In this document: piece after piece, positions 57,217-63,546 of the stretch
Layout: each line of letters opens with the position of its first letter
How positions within the stretch are numbered: position 1 is the stretch's first letter
NCBI RefSeq assembly: GCF_030444335.1
Contig: NZ_CP128595.1
Coordinates: 62,001 to 126,000, forward strand
Origin: Polaribacter huanghezhanensis
GTDB lineage: Bacteria; Bacteroidota; Bacteroidia; Flavobacteriales; Flavobacteriaceae
Length of the DNA: 64,000 bases
Direction of reading: 5' to 3'
Program-made: the position numbers and the translations under genes
The notes under the pieces: model-generated
Told to the model about the DNA's origin: nothing
The model's database searches: none
What the model saw: the letters and a program-made list of their open reading frames with translations, nothing else

Positions 57217-57744
57217 ATGCAATTAGAAGAACTTGTAGTTCAATTTAAAAATAAAGATGTAAAAGCTTTTGAAACTTTATATGAAATGTATCATAAAAGT
57301 GTACAAGGTGTTGTCTTTAATATTGTTAGAGATAAAGAATCTGCAGAAGAAATTGCGCAAGATGTTTTTATCAAAGCATGGAATAATGCAGATTCTTATG
57401 CTGCAAAAAAAGGGCGTTTTTTTACTTGGATTATCAATATTGCAAGAAATGCAGCCATAGATGAAACGCGTTCTAAAAATTTTAAGAACAATTCTAAAAA
57501 CCTTGATGCCCAAATTTTCGTAGATATATTAGAGACACACGATAGCTTAGATTCAAAAACAGATGCTATCGGAATTAGAAACTTTGTAAACAAATTAAAA
57601 GATAAATGTATTAAGGTAATTGAACTTTTATACTTTAAAGGTTTTACTCAAAAAGAAGTTTCTGAAAGTTTAGAGATTCCGTTAGGAACTATAAAAACAA
57701 GAAATAGAAATTGTATCAATGAGCTAAGACTCATGCTAAAATAA
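57217..57744 (+). CDS. ECF-type RNA polymerase sigma factor
   Basis: A 175-residue ECF sigma factor. Region 2 has the core-binding and -10 segments FNIVRDKESAEEIAQDVFIKAWNNADSY and DETRSKNFKN; region 4 has the -35 recognition helix GFTQKEVSESLEIPLGTIKTRNRNC. The TAA stop shares one base with the ATG of the anti-sigma gene, so the two are coupled. Which promoters it serves is unknown; the convergent TonB/DUF4331 locus is a candidate. Confidence 0.93.
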   Translation: MQLEELVVQFKNKDVKAFETLYEMYHKSVQGVVFNIVRDKESAEEIAQDVFIKAWNNADSYAAKKGRFFTWIINIARNAAIDETRSKNFKNNSKNLDAQIFVDILETHDSLDSKTDAIGIRNFVNKLKDKCIKVIELLYFKGFTQKEVSESLEIPLGTIKTRNRNCINELRLMLK

Positions 57745-58547
57745 TGACAAAAAACGAACACATAGAATCTGGAATTTTAGAGCTATATATTGCTGGCGCG
57801 CTTTCTGAAAAAGAAAACGAACAAGTATATCGTTTGTTACAAGAACATCCAGAAATATTAGAAGAAATTAAAGAAATAGAAAAAACCATTTCTACCTTAA
57901 CTTCTAGTGTTGCGCCAAAAGAAAGTGAAAATTCTTTCAAAAATATTTTAATAAAAATGATTCAGGATAAAGAAAATACTTCTAAAGTAGTTTCTATATC
58001 AAAACCAAGAAATAACTGGGCAAAATATTCTGGTTGGGCAGCAGCAATTATTGTTGGTTCTACACTTACATATTCTGTTTACAATACTTCAAATTTAAAC
58101 AACAAATTAGAAGCAATAAATACAGAAAAACAGCAGTTTGAATTACAATTAGAAAAAGCATCAACAGATTTAGCCCAAAACAAAAAATTACTAGGAGTTA
58201 TTAGAGATAAAAATATTATTTCAATTCCTCTACAAGGACAAAAAGTTTTTCCAGAAGCGTATGCAAAAGTATATTGGGATCAAAAAACGCAAAATATTTA
58301 TTTAGATGCGCAGGGTTTACCAGATCCGCCTAAAGGAAAAGTATACCAAGTCTGGTCTTTAAAACTAAATCCATTATCACCAACAAGTTTAGGAACCATT
58401 GATAATTTTACTGCGGATGCAAACAAGATTTTCTCAATAGAAAACCCAAATCAATCTCAAGCTTTCGGAATTACTTTAGAACCTGAAGGAGGAAGCAAAT
58501 CTCCAACACTAGATCAATTGTATACTTTAGGAGCAGTAAGTCCTTAA
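57744..58547 (+). CDS. RskA-type anti-sigma factor
   Basis: A 267-residue membrane anti-sigma factor: N-terminal helical sigma-binding domain (HIESGILELYIAGALSEKENEQV; no zinc motif), one membrane helix (about 94-112), a coiled coil at about 115-150, and a periplasmic RskA-type beta domain with VYQVWSLKLNPLSP and QAFGITLEPEGGSKSPT. It would sequester the upstream ECF factor until a periplasmic signal is sensed. The start overlaps the sigma stop by one base. A terminator follows. Confidence 0.92.
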   Translation: MTKNEHIESGILELYIAGALSEKENEQVYRLLQEHPEILEEIKEIEKTISTLTSSVAPKESENSFKNILIKMIQDKENTSKVVSISKPRNNWAKYSGWAAAIIVGSTLTYSVYNTSNLNNKLEAINTEKQQFELQLEKASTDLAQNKKLLGVIRDKNIISIPLQGQKVFPEAYAKVYWDQKTQNIYLDAQGLPDPPKGKVYQVWSLKLNPLSPTSLGTIDNFTADANKIFSIENPNQSQAFGITLEPEGGSKSPTLDQLYTLGAVSP

Positions 58548-58568
58548 AATCAAAAACTTATATATTAA

Positions 58569-58596
58569 AATAGCCGCTTTAAAAGCGGCTATTTTT
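58569..58596 (+). terminator. Intrinsic terminator after sigma/anti-sigma pair
   Basis: Arms AATAGCCGCTT (58569-58579) and AAGCGGCTATT (58583-58593), 3-base loop, T-run. Confidence 0.9.
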
Positions 58597-58672
58597 GTTA
58601 TCATTTGAATCCTTCAAAACATCACAATAACAATTGTTGATTAAAATTCCCTAATAATAATTCCACTTTCTT

Positions 58673-60901
58673 TTAAAAGGTGTAAGTAACTGATAGCTTT
58701 GCAGAAAATGGAGTTCCTGGTGTAAAATGAATTTCTTCTACAGGATTTGCTTCATTTTTTAATCTAGATGCTGTTGCAAACTGGGTTTCGTTCCAATCAA
58801 CATTAAAAAGGTTTTGTAAAGAAACACCCAATGTTATCTTGTTTATTTTATAATTTAAATTTGCATCAGCTACAAAATATCCTTTTGCTACAATAGAATT
58901 GTCTTCGTTTGCAGCTCTATCACCTATATATTTATAGTTGATTGATCCAGAAAAATTATTGTAATTATTTACCGATAATCCGCCAGTTAAAGTAACTTTT
59001 GGCGCTAACGGAATATAATCTTGACCCGCAGCAGCTTCTAAACTTCTTGCCTTTGTAAATGTTGCATCGGTATTAAAATACACCCAATTTGTAAACTGAT
59101 AACGGATTCCTAAATCCAAACCATAACGTTCAGATTTTCCTGATGGTTCTACGATTCCAGCATCACCAACATACACAAATTCTTCTTCAGATAACAAGTA
59201 CCAGAATGTGGTATTTAAAAGAAATTTTGATACTGGTTTCCAACTATTTCCAACATCTAAACCATAAGCTCTTGGCAATGTTTTATTGGTTTGCTTTACA
59301 ACTACACGCGCATCATTTGAATGAAAACCAATTCCCGATTTTAAAAACCATTGTATATTTTTATTTGGTGTGTAGGTAAAGTTTAACTTCGGGTTTACAA
59401 TTGCTTTAGATGTAGATGCTGTATTATAGGTTGGTTGCAAAGCATCGTTGTATTGAAAAGTTAAATAATCTAAACGCAAAGCTGGTGCAATTGTAAAGTT
59501 TCCAAATTCAAATTCGGCGTTTAAAAATGCATAATAATTGGTTTGATTAAGATCACCCAACTGAATAGTATTCAGCGTAGTTTTTCTATCTAATGTATGC
59601 GATAATTCAACATTTTTTACATTATCATTTCTTAAGCCTGTTCCTGTAGTTACTGTTACATCAATATCAGAAATACGTGTATTCTTTTTAAACTGTGTGT
59701 TAAATCCAAAAATATCTCTATCTTCTTGTTGTTTAATTTGATCTCCGTTTATTGGATCATTTAAAAAGAACGTAAAGTTTGAAAATAGTTTAAAAGCATA
59801 TTTTGTATAAAAAACATTGGTTTGTACTTCCACATCACTTTCTAAGGTTTTACTGTATTGAAAATTTAAATTTGTTCTAGACGTTTCTCCCCCTTCAGTA
59901 TCATCAATTGCACCAAAACGAGTGATGTTTTTATGATCAACTTCTCTTTGTGGAATTTGCCCAGAAGCATCCCATTTACTTGTAAAATGAGAAGCGGTTA
60001 ATGTAAACTTACTATTGTCTTTTAAGTATGTATTGTATTTGGTAAACAAATTAATTCTGCTAAAATTTTGAGGCGATTCTACAAAACCGTCAGTTGCTAA
60101 ATATTCTAGGGCAACGTAGGCACTTTCATTGCTTTTGTTGCCTAATAAATTAAACATTCCTAAGGTTCTAAAAGTATTAAACTGACCAATACCAATATTA
60201 ATTTGACTTTTTTGTATTGCTGTTTTTGTTTTAAAATCTACATATCCTGCAGTATTAAAATCTCCATGATTTGCATAATAAGGTCCTTTACCAAAATTTA
60301 TTTTTTGAATGGTTTCTGGAATCAAAAAATGCAAATCGCTATACCCTTGTCCGTGTGCATGCGAAACCATATTTACGGGCATTCCGTCTACAGACAAACT
60401 TAAATCTGTTCCATGATCTATATCAAAACCACGTAAAAATATTTGTTCTGCTTTACCTCCACCAGCATGTTGACCAATAAATAAACCTGGTACTTTTTGT
60501 AAAATTTCTTGCGAAGAGTTTACAGGGTTTTTTGCCAAATCTATTTTTACAACAGTTTGAATGGGATCTATTTTTTTAGTTAAAATCAATTCATCTAACA
60601 AAAATACTTTGTCTTCTAAAATTAGCGTTACTTTGTTTTTAAGTTCAGATTCTTTCAAGGAAAATTGCTGCTTTTTATATCCTAAAAGTCCTATTTCAAT
60701 AACATCGCCAACGGTAGAATTCTCGAGGATAAAACCTCCGTTTACTTTTGTATGTGTATGACTGTTTGATGTTGTATTATATACATATACATTTTCTAAA
60801 GGCTCTTTACTTGCATTTATGATACGTCCAGAAAATAATTGTGCAAAACTTTGCAAACTAAAGAGTATTGTTAATACAGTTAATAACGTTTTTGTTTTCA
60901 A
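58673..60901 (-). CDS. TonB-dependent receptor
   Basis: A 742-residue outer-membrane transporter: signal peptide about 1-20, a carboxypeptidase-regulatory-like domain (about 22-103), a plug domain with VPGLFIGQHAGGGKAEQIFLRGFDIDHGTDLSLSVDG-type signature (about 120-230), and a 22-strand barrel ending in the terminal strand SAKLSVTYTF. The His/Gly-rich plug region HAHGQGYSDLHFL is notable for possible metal contact. It is the last gene of a minus-strand series with a TPR lipoprotein and two DUF4331 proteins. The ligand is unknown. Confidence 0.92.
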   Translation of the reverse strand: MKTKTLLTVLTILFSLQSFAQLFSGRIINASKEPLENVYVYNTTSNSHTHTKVNGGFILENSTVGDVIEIGLLGYKKQQFSLKESELKNKVTLILEDKVFLLDELILTKKIDPIQTVVKIDLAKNPVNSSQEILQKVPGLFIGQHAGGGKAEQIFLRGFDIDHGTDLSLSVDGMPVNMVSHAHGQGYSDLHFLIPETIQKINFGKGPYYANHGDFNTAGYVDFKTKTAIQKSQINIGIGQFNTFRTLGMFNLLGNKSNESAYVALEYLATDGFVESPQNFSRINLFTKYNTYLKDNSKFTLTASHFTSKWDASGQIPQREVDHKNITRFGAIDDTEGGETSRTNLNFQYSKTLESDVEVQTNVFYTKYAFKLFSNFTFFLNDPINGDQIKQQEDRDIFGFNTQFKKNTRISDIDVTVTTGTGLRNDNVKNVELSHTLDRKTTLNTIQLGDLNQTNYYAFLNAEFEFGNFTIAPALRLDYLTFQYNDALQPTYNTASTSKAIVNPKLNFTYTPNKNIQWFLKSGIGFHSNDARVVVKQTNKTLPRAYGLDVGNSWKPVSKFLLNTTFWYLLSEEEFVYVGDAGIVEPSGKSERYGLDLGIRYQFTNWVYFNTDATFTKARSLEAAAGQDYIPLAPKVTLTGGLSVNNYNNFSGSINYKYIGDRAANEDNSIVAKGYFVADANLNYKINKITLGVSLQNLFNVDWNETQFATASRLKNEANPVEEIHFTPGTPFSAKLSVTYTF

Positions 60902-60911
60902 AACAGTTTTT

Positions 60912-62207
60912 TTAAATATTATTGATTCTCCTCTCCATTAATGGCCCTAACTCAAAAGTACTTTCTAACAACTCTTTTTTAATTTTTAAAGCCTTATTTG
61001 TAAAACCGTTTACTTTATAAATTTCTGCTAAATGATATTTTGCTATTGGCGCAAAGGTTTTATTTACCACATAAGAATTCATTAACTCTAACGCTTTTTG
61101 ATAGTCTTTTTTCTGAAAATAATACCATGCTAACAAATCATAGGTTTGTGGTGTAGGTCTGTTCTGAATTTCTTTTTTAATAATTACTAAAGCTTCTTCT
61201 TTTTTATCAAATTCCTCTAAAAATAATTTGATATTGTATTGATTATACATATTGCCATAAAGCTTATTTTTTACTGCAGAAAAATAGAATTCTAGGTTTT
61301 TATTTTTATTGGTTAAATTATTATCAAACTCAGCAATTTCTGCTTTTAACAAATAATAAATTGGGGATAAATTTTCTTTAGAAATCGTGTTTAAAATTCG
61401 CAAAGCTTCTTCTGGGTTTTTCTCATAAGAATACACAATCCAAGCAATTCCTTTTTTTGCATAGGTATTATTAGCATCTAACTTTAACGTTTTTAAATAA
61501 AAAGTATATGCTTTTTTAATTTTATTATTATGACCATAATAATCTGCCAAATTTGTATACGCCCAAATTTTTAAACCGGTATTATTCGAAGATTCTGCAA
61601 TTTTAGTCGCTTTTTCCATAAAATGAATTGCCGAATCTAAATCGCCCATATGATCGTTCCATTTAGAATCTCTAATCAAATAATCAAAATCTGAAAAACT
61701 TTTAATTTTTGTTAAATAACTTTCAGCTTCTTTATAATTTCCTAGTTCTAAATGTATGTCAAAAAGCATTTTTTGAGTTGCTTTTAAATTATCACCTAAA
61801 ATTTCTGCTTTTTTTACTAATTCTAAAGCTTCCTTAAATTTATGCTGAGAAATATAATTTCTAGCTAAAGCTCTTAAACTACCTGATTTTTTATATTCCG
61901 TTTTACTATTTAATTTTTGTAATTTTTGTTCTGCATTCACTAAATACTCAATGTTTCCTTCTGATGAAAAAAGCATCGTATTTGCACTTGCAATTTTCCC
62001 TAAATACGGATATTGACTTGGTTGTTTTTGAAGTTTATTTTCCCAAAAATCAAGTTCTTTTTGAGCTACTATTTTTGAAGTGTTTACCGATAAGTTTAAA
62101 TAGGTATCGTAGTCTTTTTTATTGGTAATTTTAGAATCATTTTTAGTTGAACAACTAAATGAAACAACTGCAAATATTACTAAAATAAAATTTTGTTTTG
62201 TTTTCAT
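60912..62207 (-). CDS. TPR lipoprotein
   Basis: A 431-residue lipoprotein (lipobox ending SFSC, Cys19) consisting of tandem tetratricopeptide repeats from about residue 75 to 420, for example ALARNYISQHKFKEALELVKKAE and KAYTFYLKTLKLDANNTYAKKGIAWI. It lies 10 bases upstream of the TonB receptor start in the same direction, which points to one operon and a periplasmic or inner-leaflet scaffold for the transporter (inference). A strong hairpin precedes it. Confidence 0.88.
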   Translation of the reverse strand: MKTKQNFILVIFAVVSFSCSTKNDSKITNKKDYDTYLNLSVNTSKIVAQKELDFWENKLQKQPSQYPYLGKIASANTMLFSSEGNIEYLVNAEQKLQKLNSKTEYKKSGSLRALARNYISQHKFKEALELVKKAEILGDNLKATQKMLFDIHLELGNYKEAESYLTKIKSFSDFDYLIRDSKWNDHMGDLDSAIHFMEKATKIAESSNNTGLKIWAYTNLADYYGHNNKIKKAYTFYLKTLKLDANNTYAKKGIAWIVYSYEKNPEEALRILNTISKENLSPIYYLLKAEIAEFDNNLTNKNKNLEFYFSAVKNKLYGNMYNQYNIKLFLEEFDKKEEALVIIKKEIQNRPTPQTYDLLAWYYFQKKDYQKALELMNSYVVNKTFAPIAKYHLAEIYKVNGFTNKALKIKKELLESTFELGPLMERRINNI

Positions 62208-62240
62208 TATTTCGAAGGATTTAAAGTGAAAATTATTGTA

Positions 62241-62275
62241 AAAATTGACTGTATTTTACAACAGTCAATTTTTAT
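62241..62275 (-). terminator. Terminator or attenuator between DUF4331 and TPR genes
   Basis: Perfect 12-base arms AAAATTGACTGT (62241-62252) and ACAGTCAATTTT (62261-62272), loop of 8. On the minus strand the stem is followed by a short T-run, so downstream TPR-TonB expression may be lower than DUF4331 expression. Confidence 0.7.
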
Positions 62276-62279
62276 TTTT

Positions 62280-62309
62280 AAGGGGGATTTTATTAAGGGG
62301 GATTTTATT
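62280..62309. repeat. Tandem exact 15-base repeat next to the DUF4331 stop codon
   Basis: AAGGGGGATTTTATT is present twice without spacer (62280-62294 and 62295-62309), directly adjoining the stop codon of the minus-strand DUF4331 gene. The G5 run may be prone to slippage. No other copies seen. Confidence 0.8.
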
Positions 62310-62867
62310 TTACCAAGGTGACGCCAAGTAAGGGAACGACGTAGAAAAAGTTTTGTCGTTTGCATCTACATGATCATCAGATAATGTTGGGTTTTCAGTA
62401 AAATCTTCTCCACCAAAAATCAACAATAATTCTACCGTAATAACATCATCATTCAACGCTCTTCCTGTCAACACATTTGTGCCATCATAAAAAGTTGTTT
62501 TTCCGTCTAATGATACTGTTAATACATCTGTTGCCAAAACACTTGTAAAAGTTGCAGCGTCCAACATTAATGCATTTTTATCTCCTGCATTTGCGTACGC
62601 CGGACTTAAGGCTTTTAAATTTATTTCAAACATTGATTGAAATGCTGCTCCTTGTTGAGTAGGAATTGTAACATTAAAAGCATCTTTCATATTTGAGTTT
62701 ACAAATACAGTATTAATCGCTGGTCTTCCCATTTGATCTTTCTGCGCATATGTACCAGAAAAATCAATCATAACCTCTGTTTCTAAACTCGATTTTTTAC
62801 TACAACTTGTCAATGACATAATTGACAAAATTAATACGGTTACTATTTTTATATTGTTAAGTTTCAT
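62310..62867 (-). CDS. DUF4331-type lipoprotein, C-terminal-half form
   Basis: A 185-residue lipoprotein (lipobox SLTSC, Cys22). The segment MGRPAINTVFVNSNMKDAFNVTIP (about 46-69) is the characteristic core of the second half of DUF4331 proteins, and the C-terminus ends NDDVITVELLLIFGG and FPYLASPW. It lacks the N-terminal HxDxP strand found in the neighbouring gene. The two genes therefore divide one DUF4331 domain. Function of DUF4331 is unknown. Confidence 0.85.
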   Translation of the reverse strand: MKLNNIKIVTVLILSIMSLTSCSKKSSLETEVMIDFSGTYAQKDQMGRPAINTVFVNSNMKDAFNVTIPTQQGAAFQSMFEINLKALSPAYANAGDKNALMLDAATFTSVLATDVLTVSLDGKTTFYDGTNVLTGRALNDDVITVELLLIFGGEDFTENPTLSDDHVDANDKTFSTSFPYLASPW

Positions 62868-62895
62868 TTTTAAAAGTTTTAAAATTGTTAATTAA

Positions 62896-63546
62896 TTATT
62901 GTTTTACTTTAGATTCTACCCAAGTATTAATTGTTCCGCTTCCACCAATCATAGATTTTGGAACTTCAACTACAATAGATAATACATTAGTTCCTGCAAA
63001 AGTATCTGCACCTGGATTGTTAAAGCTTGTTGCTCTACCTCCAATAATTTCTCCGTATTGTGCAAAATCCATAAAGAAAGGATCATCTCTTGGACCAGCA
63101 AAGAATTTCATTTCTCCTTTTGTTCCTATGATTGCATTTGAACCATAAGGTGTAATTGCTACTCCATACGCAGAATTATCAGTAGGAATTGTACTATTTA
63201 AACCTGTAGAACCTGGTGCAAAAGGACCAAAGAAATACATTTTCCCGTTTCTTGGAATTGCTTGTATTACCCAATCTTCAATTTTATCATCGTTGGTATC
63301 AATATTAAATTCTACCAAAACGTTTTCATCAAATTTTGCTGTTTGTGACGCCATCGGACTTAATAGTCCTTGTACGTTGGCAACAAAAACTAAATTGTTG
63401 GTGTTTTCGCCTTGAAAGGCATAAAAATCGGTGATATCACTTGAACCACCTGCTACTGTTGGAGCATCAATATGATCTGCTGCATATAGGATTAAACCTA
63501 ATACTGCAAATGCGCATGTTCCAATAATTAATTTCATTTTTTTCAT
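62896..63546 (-). CDS. DUF4331-type exported protein, N-terminal-half form
   Basis: A 216-residue exported protein with a hydrophobic signal (about 5-22). It starts the DUF4331 domain with AADHIDAPTVAGGSSDITDFYAFQ and continues with LVFVANVQGLLSP and FNIDTNDDKIEDW, the calcium-like Asp-rich stretch. The C-terminal part (FAGTNVLSIVVEVPKSM) ends before the second half domain, which is the next gene, 28 bases downstream. The pair starts the DUF4331-TPR-TonB series on the minus strand. Confidence 0.85.
   Translation of the reverse strand: MKKMKLIIGTCAFAVLGLILYAADHIDAPTVAGGSSDITDFYAFQGENTNNLVFVANVQGLLSPMASQTAKFDENVLVEFNIDTNDDKIEDWVIQAIPRNGKMYFFGPFAPGSTGLNSTIPTDNSAYGVAITPYGSNAIIGTKGEMKFFAGPRDDPFFMDFAQYGEIIGGRATSFNNPGADTFAGTNVLSIVVEVPKSMIGGSGTINTWVESKVKQ

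Follow-up and report, generated by a model that had tools for sequence, protein, structure and literature searches.

We analyzed a stretch of 64,000 nucleotides of Polaribacter huanghezhanensis DNA (the window, whose positions serve as coordinates), at the end of which lie six genes: those of an extracytoplasmic function (ECF) sigma factor and its anti-sigma factor and, convergent to this pair, an operon of order dufN-dufC-TPR-TonB, which encodes two DUF4331 proteins, a tetratricopeptide repeat (TPR) lipoprotein and a TonB-dependent receptor. An initial annotation of the window had called this gene set, and all its members are indeed present as open reading frames (ORFs) with Pfam matches. We consider it likely that they belong to a small envelope regulon resembling that of SigK and RskA, in which the operon, a fasciclin gene located elsewhere in the genome, and the anti-sigma gene itself would be targets of the motif AAAACC-N16-CGTA. 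The features of the locus are:

57217-57744, + strand: ECF sigma factor, SigK-like (Pfam Sigma70_r2/r4)
57497-57522, + strand: intragenic ECF-type promoter motif AAAACC-N16-CGTA in the sigma gene, predicted driver of the anti-sigma gene (51 of 56 sigma ORFs)
57744-58547, + strand: membrane anti-sigma factor with RskA_C domain, without zinc motif (PF10099)
58567-58595, no strand assigned: terminator-like stem-loop between the convergent units (terminator-like match)
58673-60901, - strand: TonB-dependent receptor with CarbopepD_reg_2 domain and His-rich plug, without STN (domain search)
60912-62207, - strand: TPR lipoprotein (domain search; Cys19 in 79 of 79)
62239-62274, - strand: stem-loop between dufC and the TPR gene, probable intra-operon attenuator (stem count across gaps)
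62310-62867, - strand: dufC, C-terminal half of DUF4331, lipoprotein (PF14224 235-421; Cys22 invariant in 48)
62896-63546, - strand: dufN, N-terminal half of DUF4331, exported, with an ADHIDAP motif (PF14224 2-76 and 149-236)
63585-63610, - strand: predicted ECF-type promoter of the DUF4331-TPR-TonB operon, AAAACC-N16-CGTA (80 of 80 upstream regions)

Genes of the locus and their relatives

The sigma factor has SigK as its best NCBIfam match (E 2e-37) and M. tuberculosis SigK (4nqw, E 2.7e-17) as its best match in the PDB. The anti-sigma gene lies directly downstream, its start overlapping the sigma stop codon, and its product scores above the cut-off of PF10099, the RskA_C family (63.6 bits versus 29.4). 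The zinc motif HxxxCxxC, used here as the mark of a ChrR-type anti-sigma, is carried by none of the 59 anti-sigmas compared (58 loci and the window), in agreement with the initial annotation, which had noticed no zinc in this protein. RskA is likewise described as an anti-sigma without zinc, and class I anti-sigmas are said to adjoin only 6% of Bacteroidetes ECFs (PMC7406223; this paper and the others designated by a PMC number are cited from excerpts). By these NCBIfam, PDB and Pfam matches, the pair appears to be SigK/RskA-like. Two cysteines of the sigma factor, C131 and C166, are conserved in at least 90% of 56 homologues; they differ from the positions of the SigK redox pair as aligned.

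Both DUF4331 genes exceed the PF14224 gathering score (84.1 and 56.9 bits, for a cut-off of 27), and their matches jointly cover most of the profile. The two exported DUF4331 proteins of the initial annotation thus correspond to a single domain split into an N-terminal and a C-terminal half. By sequence reading, dufN has a signal peptide, whereas dufC and the TPR protein each carry a conserved lipobox-like Cys and look like lipoproteins. DUF4331 was found in 37 of 296 sampled Bacteroidota genomes, by our reading 18 times as a single chain and 19 times in two pieces. An internal duplication of DUF4331 was considered and rejected: hhalign relates the two halves with a probability of 26% over the first 56-57 residues, signal peptides included, and of 1% once the first 22 residues are removed, the mature halves being dissimilar. 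A DHxD motif is conserved in dufN, whose AlphaFold model (pLDDT 70) is mostly beta. Foldseek retrieved nothing from the PDB for this model at E up to 0.001, and VIA-align gave immunoglobulin-like chains as best match (Z 6.5), which may mean just a common beta arrangement; the dufC model (pLDDT 54) was too poor for a structure search. Pfam assigns no role to DUF4331, and a literature search returned no paper naming DUF4331 or PF14224, alone or with a sigma factor.

The His-rich plug attributed to the receptor is conserved, the pattern SHAHGQGY.D.HF being present in 59 of 59 receptors (58 loci and the window); the narrower H.HGQGY.DLHFL occurs in just 14 of them. H.HGQG was not found around five other TonB matches of the same genome, which were searched as stretches and not as complete genes. 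As previously noted, the receptor carries no sigma-regulating signalling domain: STN was detected neither on it nor in the whole genome, by a search that matched 4 of 14 controls. The DUF4331 halves probably assemble into a single complex, at the surface or in the periplasm, that would work with the TPR lipoprotein and the receptor.

Looking for the same gene set in relatives, as the initial annotation had proposed, we scanned species genomes with dufN, found 238 relatives and used the best 80 loci, a single sample drawn by dufN similarity in which all are Flavobacteriaceae as far as titles tell. The set recurs across this family. Indeed, dufN and dufC ORFs are present in 80 of 80 loci and a TPR ORF in 78, while TonB is found in 60, directly after TPR in 56 of them and displaced in 4, the 20 others having no TonB in the stretch. 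Sigma and anti-sigma are both present in 55 loci and, as in the window, converge on the operon in 54 of these. The association of these genes is not due to chance. A conserved extra part between the operon and the anti-sigma gene was sought and rejected, the 75 gap ORFs of 35 loci comprising 47 singletons and a largest family of 5. Three loci (L022, L031, L068) carry a second dufN-dufC copy in tandem, before TPR. Moreover, half of the 80 loci (40) have, upstream and on the opposite strand, a gene of 390 amino acids (LETM1_RBD match in L018, 6461-7633), which adjoins dufN in 35.

Candidate promoters of the operon and of the anti-sigma gene

The motif was sought in the 79 loci with 220 bases upstream of dufN, to which the window was added. 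AAAACC-N16-CGTA precedes dufN in 80 of these 80 upstream regions, always with a spacer of 16, and the strict form AAAACC-N16-CGTA.GTA is found in 72, compared with 0 of 16000 mononucleotide-shuffled sequences. The position of TonB provides another line of evidence. In four loci (L022, L029, L030, L037), TonB is separate from the operon and found on the far side of the sigma gene; the motif precedes these 4 displaced copies and none of the 56 in-operon copies (Fisher 2e-6), a pattern that would be expected if the same sigma factor must keep control of TonB. Hence, this sigma factor very probably controls the DUF4331-TPR-TonB operon, as the initial annotation had suspected.

That annotation had also looked forward to a shared motif before the operon and before the sigma gene, of which only the first half stands. 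AAAACC-N16-CGTA was found in 0 of 54 regions upstream of the sigma gene, and positive autoregulation of sigma from upstream was rejected on this count. The house-keeping promoter consensus is TAnnTTTG. Before the sigma gene, this consensus occurs in 2 of 54 regions versus 3.3 in shuffled sequences, and the form TA..TT[TA]G in 23 versus 6.1. The ECF-type motif is located inside the sigma gene instead, at 57497-57522, on the same strand as the anti-sigma gene and 222 bases before its start, and 51 of the 56 sigma ORFs compared (55 loci and the window) have it.

We compared codon choice at 97 positions of these sigma ORFs with the codon use of the other genes in each locus. F101 is encoded by TTC in 56 of 56 ORFs (9.1 expected), N95 by AAC in 56 of 56 (17.0 expected), V102 by GTA in 56 of 56 (22.6 expected), and L96 by CTN in 52 of 53. 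These four motif codons occupy ranks 1 to 4 of the 97 for synonymous bias, which has a probability of 3e-7 by rank alone; relatedness does not favor them, because all positions share one phylogeny. Some relatives even have other residues around the site and keep the motif. Coding constraint does not explain the intragenic motif. The site is also found in 23 of 26 best sigma matches of whole-genome loci, although these genomes may overlap the first set, and in 0 of 4 loci with a second sigma copy (lower identity, same genomes).

The simplest reading is that sigma uses the intragenic site as a promoter to transcribe the anti-sigma gene alone. On the other hand, the site could be a real sequence constraint of another nature, i.e., nonproductive binding of sigma-RNA polymerase, pausing, or an RNA function. 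Most intragenic sigma sites in E. coli and other bacteria are described as inactive in transcription (PMC10771440), which speaks for such an explanation; the site lies, however, on the same strand as the anti-sigma gene and just before it, with the same 16-base spacer as the operon promoter, and is missing from all four second-copy sigma loci examined. We regard a function other than that of promoter as unlikely. Caulobacter sigV is a reported case of a sigma gene preceded by an intragenic promoter, which lies inside cabp, and in the excerpted literature on intragenic promoters with ECF anti-sigmas no sigma gene with an internal anti-sigma promoter is described.

Within the operon, the dufC-TPR gap contains a stem of at least 9 pairs in 64 of 76 gaps, versus 7 of 76 gaps shuffled once each, and across these gaps the sequence differs while the structure is kept. 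This stem-loop is a probable attenuator, by which TPR and TonB would be expressed less than the DUF4331 halves. The region has no more terminator-like matches than shuffled sequences do (2 versus a mean of 3.1), and Rfam returned nothing at its gathering threshold between 56000 and 64000 of the window. Directly 3' of the dufC gene, at 62281-62309, AGGGGGATTTTATT occurs twice in tandem.

The predicted regulon

In the genome of P. huanghezhanensis, the pattern AAACC-N15..17-CGTARGTA has two matches (four for the reversed control): one is the dufN promoter, and the other lies 40 bases upstream of the gene of a secreted fasciclin (PF02469, E 2.4e-34). The fasciclin promoter (C1:1878785) and the sigma gene (C1:119217) are 1.76 Mb apart along the contig. 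A fasciclin search in 36 relatives returned 30 loci, further weak matches being outside this count. Among the 13 fasciclins at 61% identity or more, AAAACC-N16-CGTA lies directly upstream of 12 and, with one mismatch, of the 13th, whereas it is upstream of 0 of the 17 at 59% or less, one of which has a site about 1.4 kb away (12/13 versus 0/17, Fisher 1.5e-7, with an identity split chosen post hoc). Three of the 13 close fasciclins had already surfaced in the motif search of the genus genomes presented below. The fasciclin is therefore predicted to belong to the sigma regulon.

For the comparison within the genus, we used 26 genomes, i.e., all 13 with DUF4331 other than that of P. huanghezhanensis and 13 of the 22 without it, picked for completeness. 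The strict motif has 20 matches in the genomes with DUF4331 (in 12 of 13) and 3 in those without (in 2 of 13), for 8 and 7 matches of the reversed control. Twelve of the 20 are dufN promoters; the remaining 8 comprise 3 before fasciclins, 2 before a propeller-like lipoprotein, and 3 before unrelated-looking genes. In two genomes (G315 and G296, loci L175 and L176), the strict motif stands 26-27 bases before a repeat-rich lipoprotein of 338-340 amino acids (73% mutual identity).

The sigma orthologue follows DUF4331 closely, being present in 13 of 13 genus genomes with it versus 2 of the 13 examined without it (Fisher 2e-5), as well as in each of 10 further DUF4331 genomes of the family. The two sigma-bearing genomes without DUF4331, G304 and G328, both have motif-bearing fasciclins. 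G304 has moreover kept, in locus L171, a dufN-like promoter behind which there is no operon or DUF4331 gene, an orphan that we interpret as a trace of operon loss. Thus, of the independence of the two gene sets that the initial annotation had envisaged, one direction only is observed: in these genomes the operon never occurs without sigma, and sigma does occur without the operon. The same genomes also bear on the idea that the operon has nothing to do with the sigma pair and is its neighbor by chance. Indeed, in 5 of the 13 genomes with DUF4331 (G299, G301, G310, G320, G330), sigma and dufN are on different contigs or over 200 kb apart; but these same five genomes still keep both sigma and the strict motif before dufN, and elsewhere the linkage of sigma to the operon recurs although the gap genes differ. 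Mere neighborhood is, to our mind, highly improbable.

We propose the following working of the regulon. At rest, the membrane-anchored anti-sigma of RskA type would hold the sigma factor, as suggested by its family. An envelope signal would free sigma, probably via cleavage of the anti-sigma, by analogy with M. tuberculosis RskA (PMC7509140). Freed sigma would recognize AAAACC-N16-CGTA and transcribe dufN-dufC-TPR-TonB, the stem-loop after dufC favoring the DUF4331 halves over TPR and TonB; it would also transcribe the secreted fasciclin gene elsewhere in the genome and, from the promoter within its own reading frame, its anti-sigma. Since the sigma gene has no such promoter upstream, activation would produce more brake and no extra sigma, a built-in negative feedback.

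Several known systems can be compared with this one. It was initially described as matching neither SusCD nor FecIR layouts, and the absence of STN, FecR and SusD supports this; the locus is nevertheless less unmatched than was thought, given its SigK/RskA likeness and the fasciclin of its predicted regulon. With FecI-FecR-FecA, it shares an ECF sigma, a membrane anti-sigma and a TonB receptor, but it has neither STN nor FecR (only RskA_C was found), and the receptor would, judging by sequence, be an output and not a sensor. Unlike in SusCD, there is no SusD-like lipoprotein beside the receptor, only TPR and DUF4331. The R. sphaeroides RpoE-ChrR system is alike in being an ECF system linked to a fasciclin, RSP_1409, which belongs to its regulon. 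ChrR, however, needs zinc (PMC7406223), and the zinc motif is absent here.

The closest likeness is with M. tuberculosis SigK-RskA (mpt83-dipZ-mpt70, ECF18/19): in both, a SigK-like sigma is followed by an RskA_C membrane anti-sigma without zinc, and the regulon is very small with a fasciclin among its targets, the latter being predicted here. Mycobacterial SigK-RskA controls the fasciclins MPB70 and MPB83 (PMC10540498, PMC7509140), and an mpt83-sigK-rskA cassette with a SigK site is found even in Gram-negatives (PMC7509140). The flavobacterial system differs in that its fasciclin is not adjacent to the sigma genes, DUF4331-TPR-TonB is added, no Cys aligns with SigK Cys133, and a brake promoter is predicted inside the sigma gene, which goes unmentioned in the excerpted literature on SigK-RskA. 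Thus, a SigK-like pair with a fasciclin target has precedents; what is new to us is the DUF4331 operon, together with the brake promoter.

Several observations weigh against this regulon. The SigK match (128.8 bits) is below the curated threshold of 226, the anti-sigma has no match in the PDB, and at the position aligned with SigK Cys133 the sigma factor has no Cys, F123 facing it in the 4nqw alignment (tag offset inferred); the second redox Cys (183) is beyond the aligned part. Such cysteines are conserved in 94% of ECF18 and in just 56% of ECF19 (PMC7509140), so the missing counterpart of Cys133 does not exclude ECF19. The relatives are not independent of each other; 20 of the 80 loci lack TonB, and 25 have no complete sigma pair or none at all, partly on account of short contigs; and 5 of 56 sigma ORFs lack an exact intragenic site. 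AAAACC-N16-CGTA occurs 7 times in the P. huanghezhanensis genome versus 24 for its reversed control and, as with the AAACC pattern, the reversed form matches more often, so that single sites in this genome are not significant and the case for the motif rests on conservation. The 12 dufN promoters among the 20 genus matches make that count mostly a restatement of the dufN result, and the strict motif has no match in one of the DUF4331 genomes, G329. Before distant DUF4331 genes, we saw no N16 motif, an N17 form preceding dufN in L123 and L125 only; N17 forms also precede TonB in L117 and TPR in L125. Finally, transcription from the motifs is deduced from their presence, conservation and codon bias, which are observed.

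Possible roles of the operon

A first possibility is metal acquisition: the receptor with its His-rich plug would import a nickel- or cobalt-like ligand, which the DUF4331 halves and the TPR protein would capture and pass on, a HupE/UreJ or NicO protein completing the route elsewhere. HupE/UreJ proteins are described as nickel permeases (PMC5557971), and six of 20 distant Bacteroidota loci (L120, L122, L123, L124, L133, L135) have HupE_UreJ_2, in five cases on the same strand and beside TPR or one gene from it. Seven plasmid loci were also opened, of 22 plasmid matches, and four of the seven have a NicO or HupE gene next to DUF4331. In Nostoc and Streptomyces, DUF4331-TPR is followed by NicO; HupE comes directly after DUF4331 in Rhizobium, whereas in Croceicoccus a TPR-like gene stands between the two. 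These sets of other phyla share with the flavobacterial operon the adjacency of DUF4331 and TPR genes (and, in Croceicoccus, the split DUF4331, the sigma factor and the RskA_C anti-sigma), but have an inner-membrane permease instead of, or besides, the TonB receptor. The conserved DHxD of dufN and the plug histidines point the same way, these being kept in all flavobacterial receptors compared and H.HGQG being found in 8 of 10 distant receptor ORFs. In contrast, HupE or NicO ORFs number 0 in the 80 flavobacterial loci, which led us to reject HupE as a part of this operon, and the HupE gene of P. huanghezhanensis itself is unlinked to it. No such permease is present in 14 of the 20 distant loci and 3 of the 7 plasmid loci, the 20 flavobacterial loci without TonB nearby also speak against an uptake function, and a fasciclin is ill-suited to an uptake system. 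The HupE/NicO neighbors of distant relatives and the plug histidines therefore give hints of the handling of a metal or metal complex, and metal acquisition by this operon seems possible but doubtful.

A second possibility is a response to envelope or photo-oxidative stress, in which the surface would be remodelled with the adhesive fasciclin and the DUF4331 proteins, the receptor being secondary. In the M. tuberculosis complex, SigK targets include fasciclins (PMC10540498), the mpk83 and mpk70 fasciclins of M. kansasii are light-induced (PMC9861118), and RSP_1409 figures in a table of photo-oxidative stress data of R. sphaeroides (PMC7074977); the motif before the repeat-rich lipoprotein of two relatives also fits. 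However, no known photo-stress gene (photolyase, carotenoid, peroxidase) is among the motif targets examined, the association with HupE and TonB is left unexplained, the mycobacterial signal is given as unknown (PMC7509140), and a literature search on light and flavobacterial fasciclins yielded nothing useful. A stress response is plausible and worth keeping in view, while falling short of being probable.

Returning to the SigK/RskA-like regulon, we tentatively advance a wider picture, in which the sigma factor reads a promoter overprinted in its own frame for the anti-sigma only, as a pulse generator or homeostat, and runs a SigK-like regulon coupling the fasciclin to a split-DUF4331/TPR/TonB surface machine, hitherto unassigned, which might be the outer-membrane counterpart of DUF4331-TPR-HupE/NicO metal systems of other phyla. 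In any case, these results propose for DUF4331 a regulator, a promoter sequence and partner genes, and raise the question of metal or stress. The overprinted promoter, if true, would couple sigma activity compactly to its own shut-off, and would imply that ECF targets can hide in coding sequence, where codon bias can find them. The fasciclin link suggests a target class common to SigK-like regulons, from mycobacteria to flavobacteria.

Some distant loci present arrangements of their own. On the Croceicoccus plasmid (L114, 7926-13274), the DUF4331 N half and C half, the TPR-like gene, HupE/UreJ, sigma and the RskA_C anti-sigma form one run. A DUF6702 gene lies between TPR and HupE in L133 and L135. 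In L125 (9923-14503), a fusion combines DUF4331 with four stretches of CHRD domains and a Por secretion tail, and on an Adhaeribacter plasmid (L117, 5136-7405), the TonB receptor beside DUF4331-TPR is annotated as two coding pieces.

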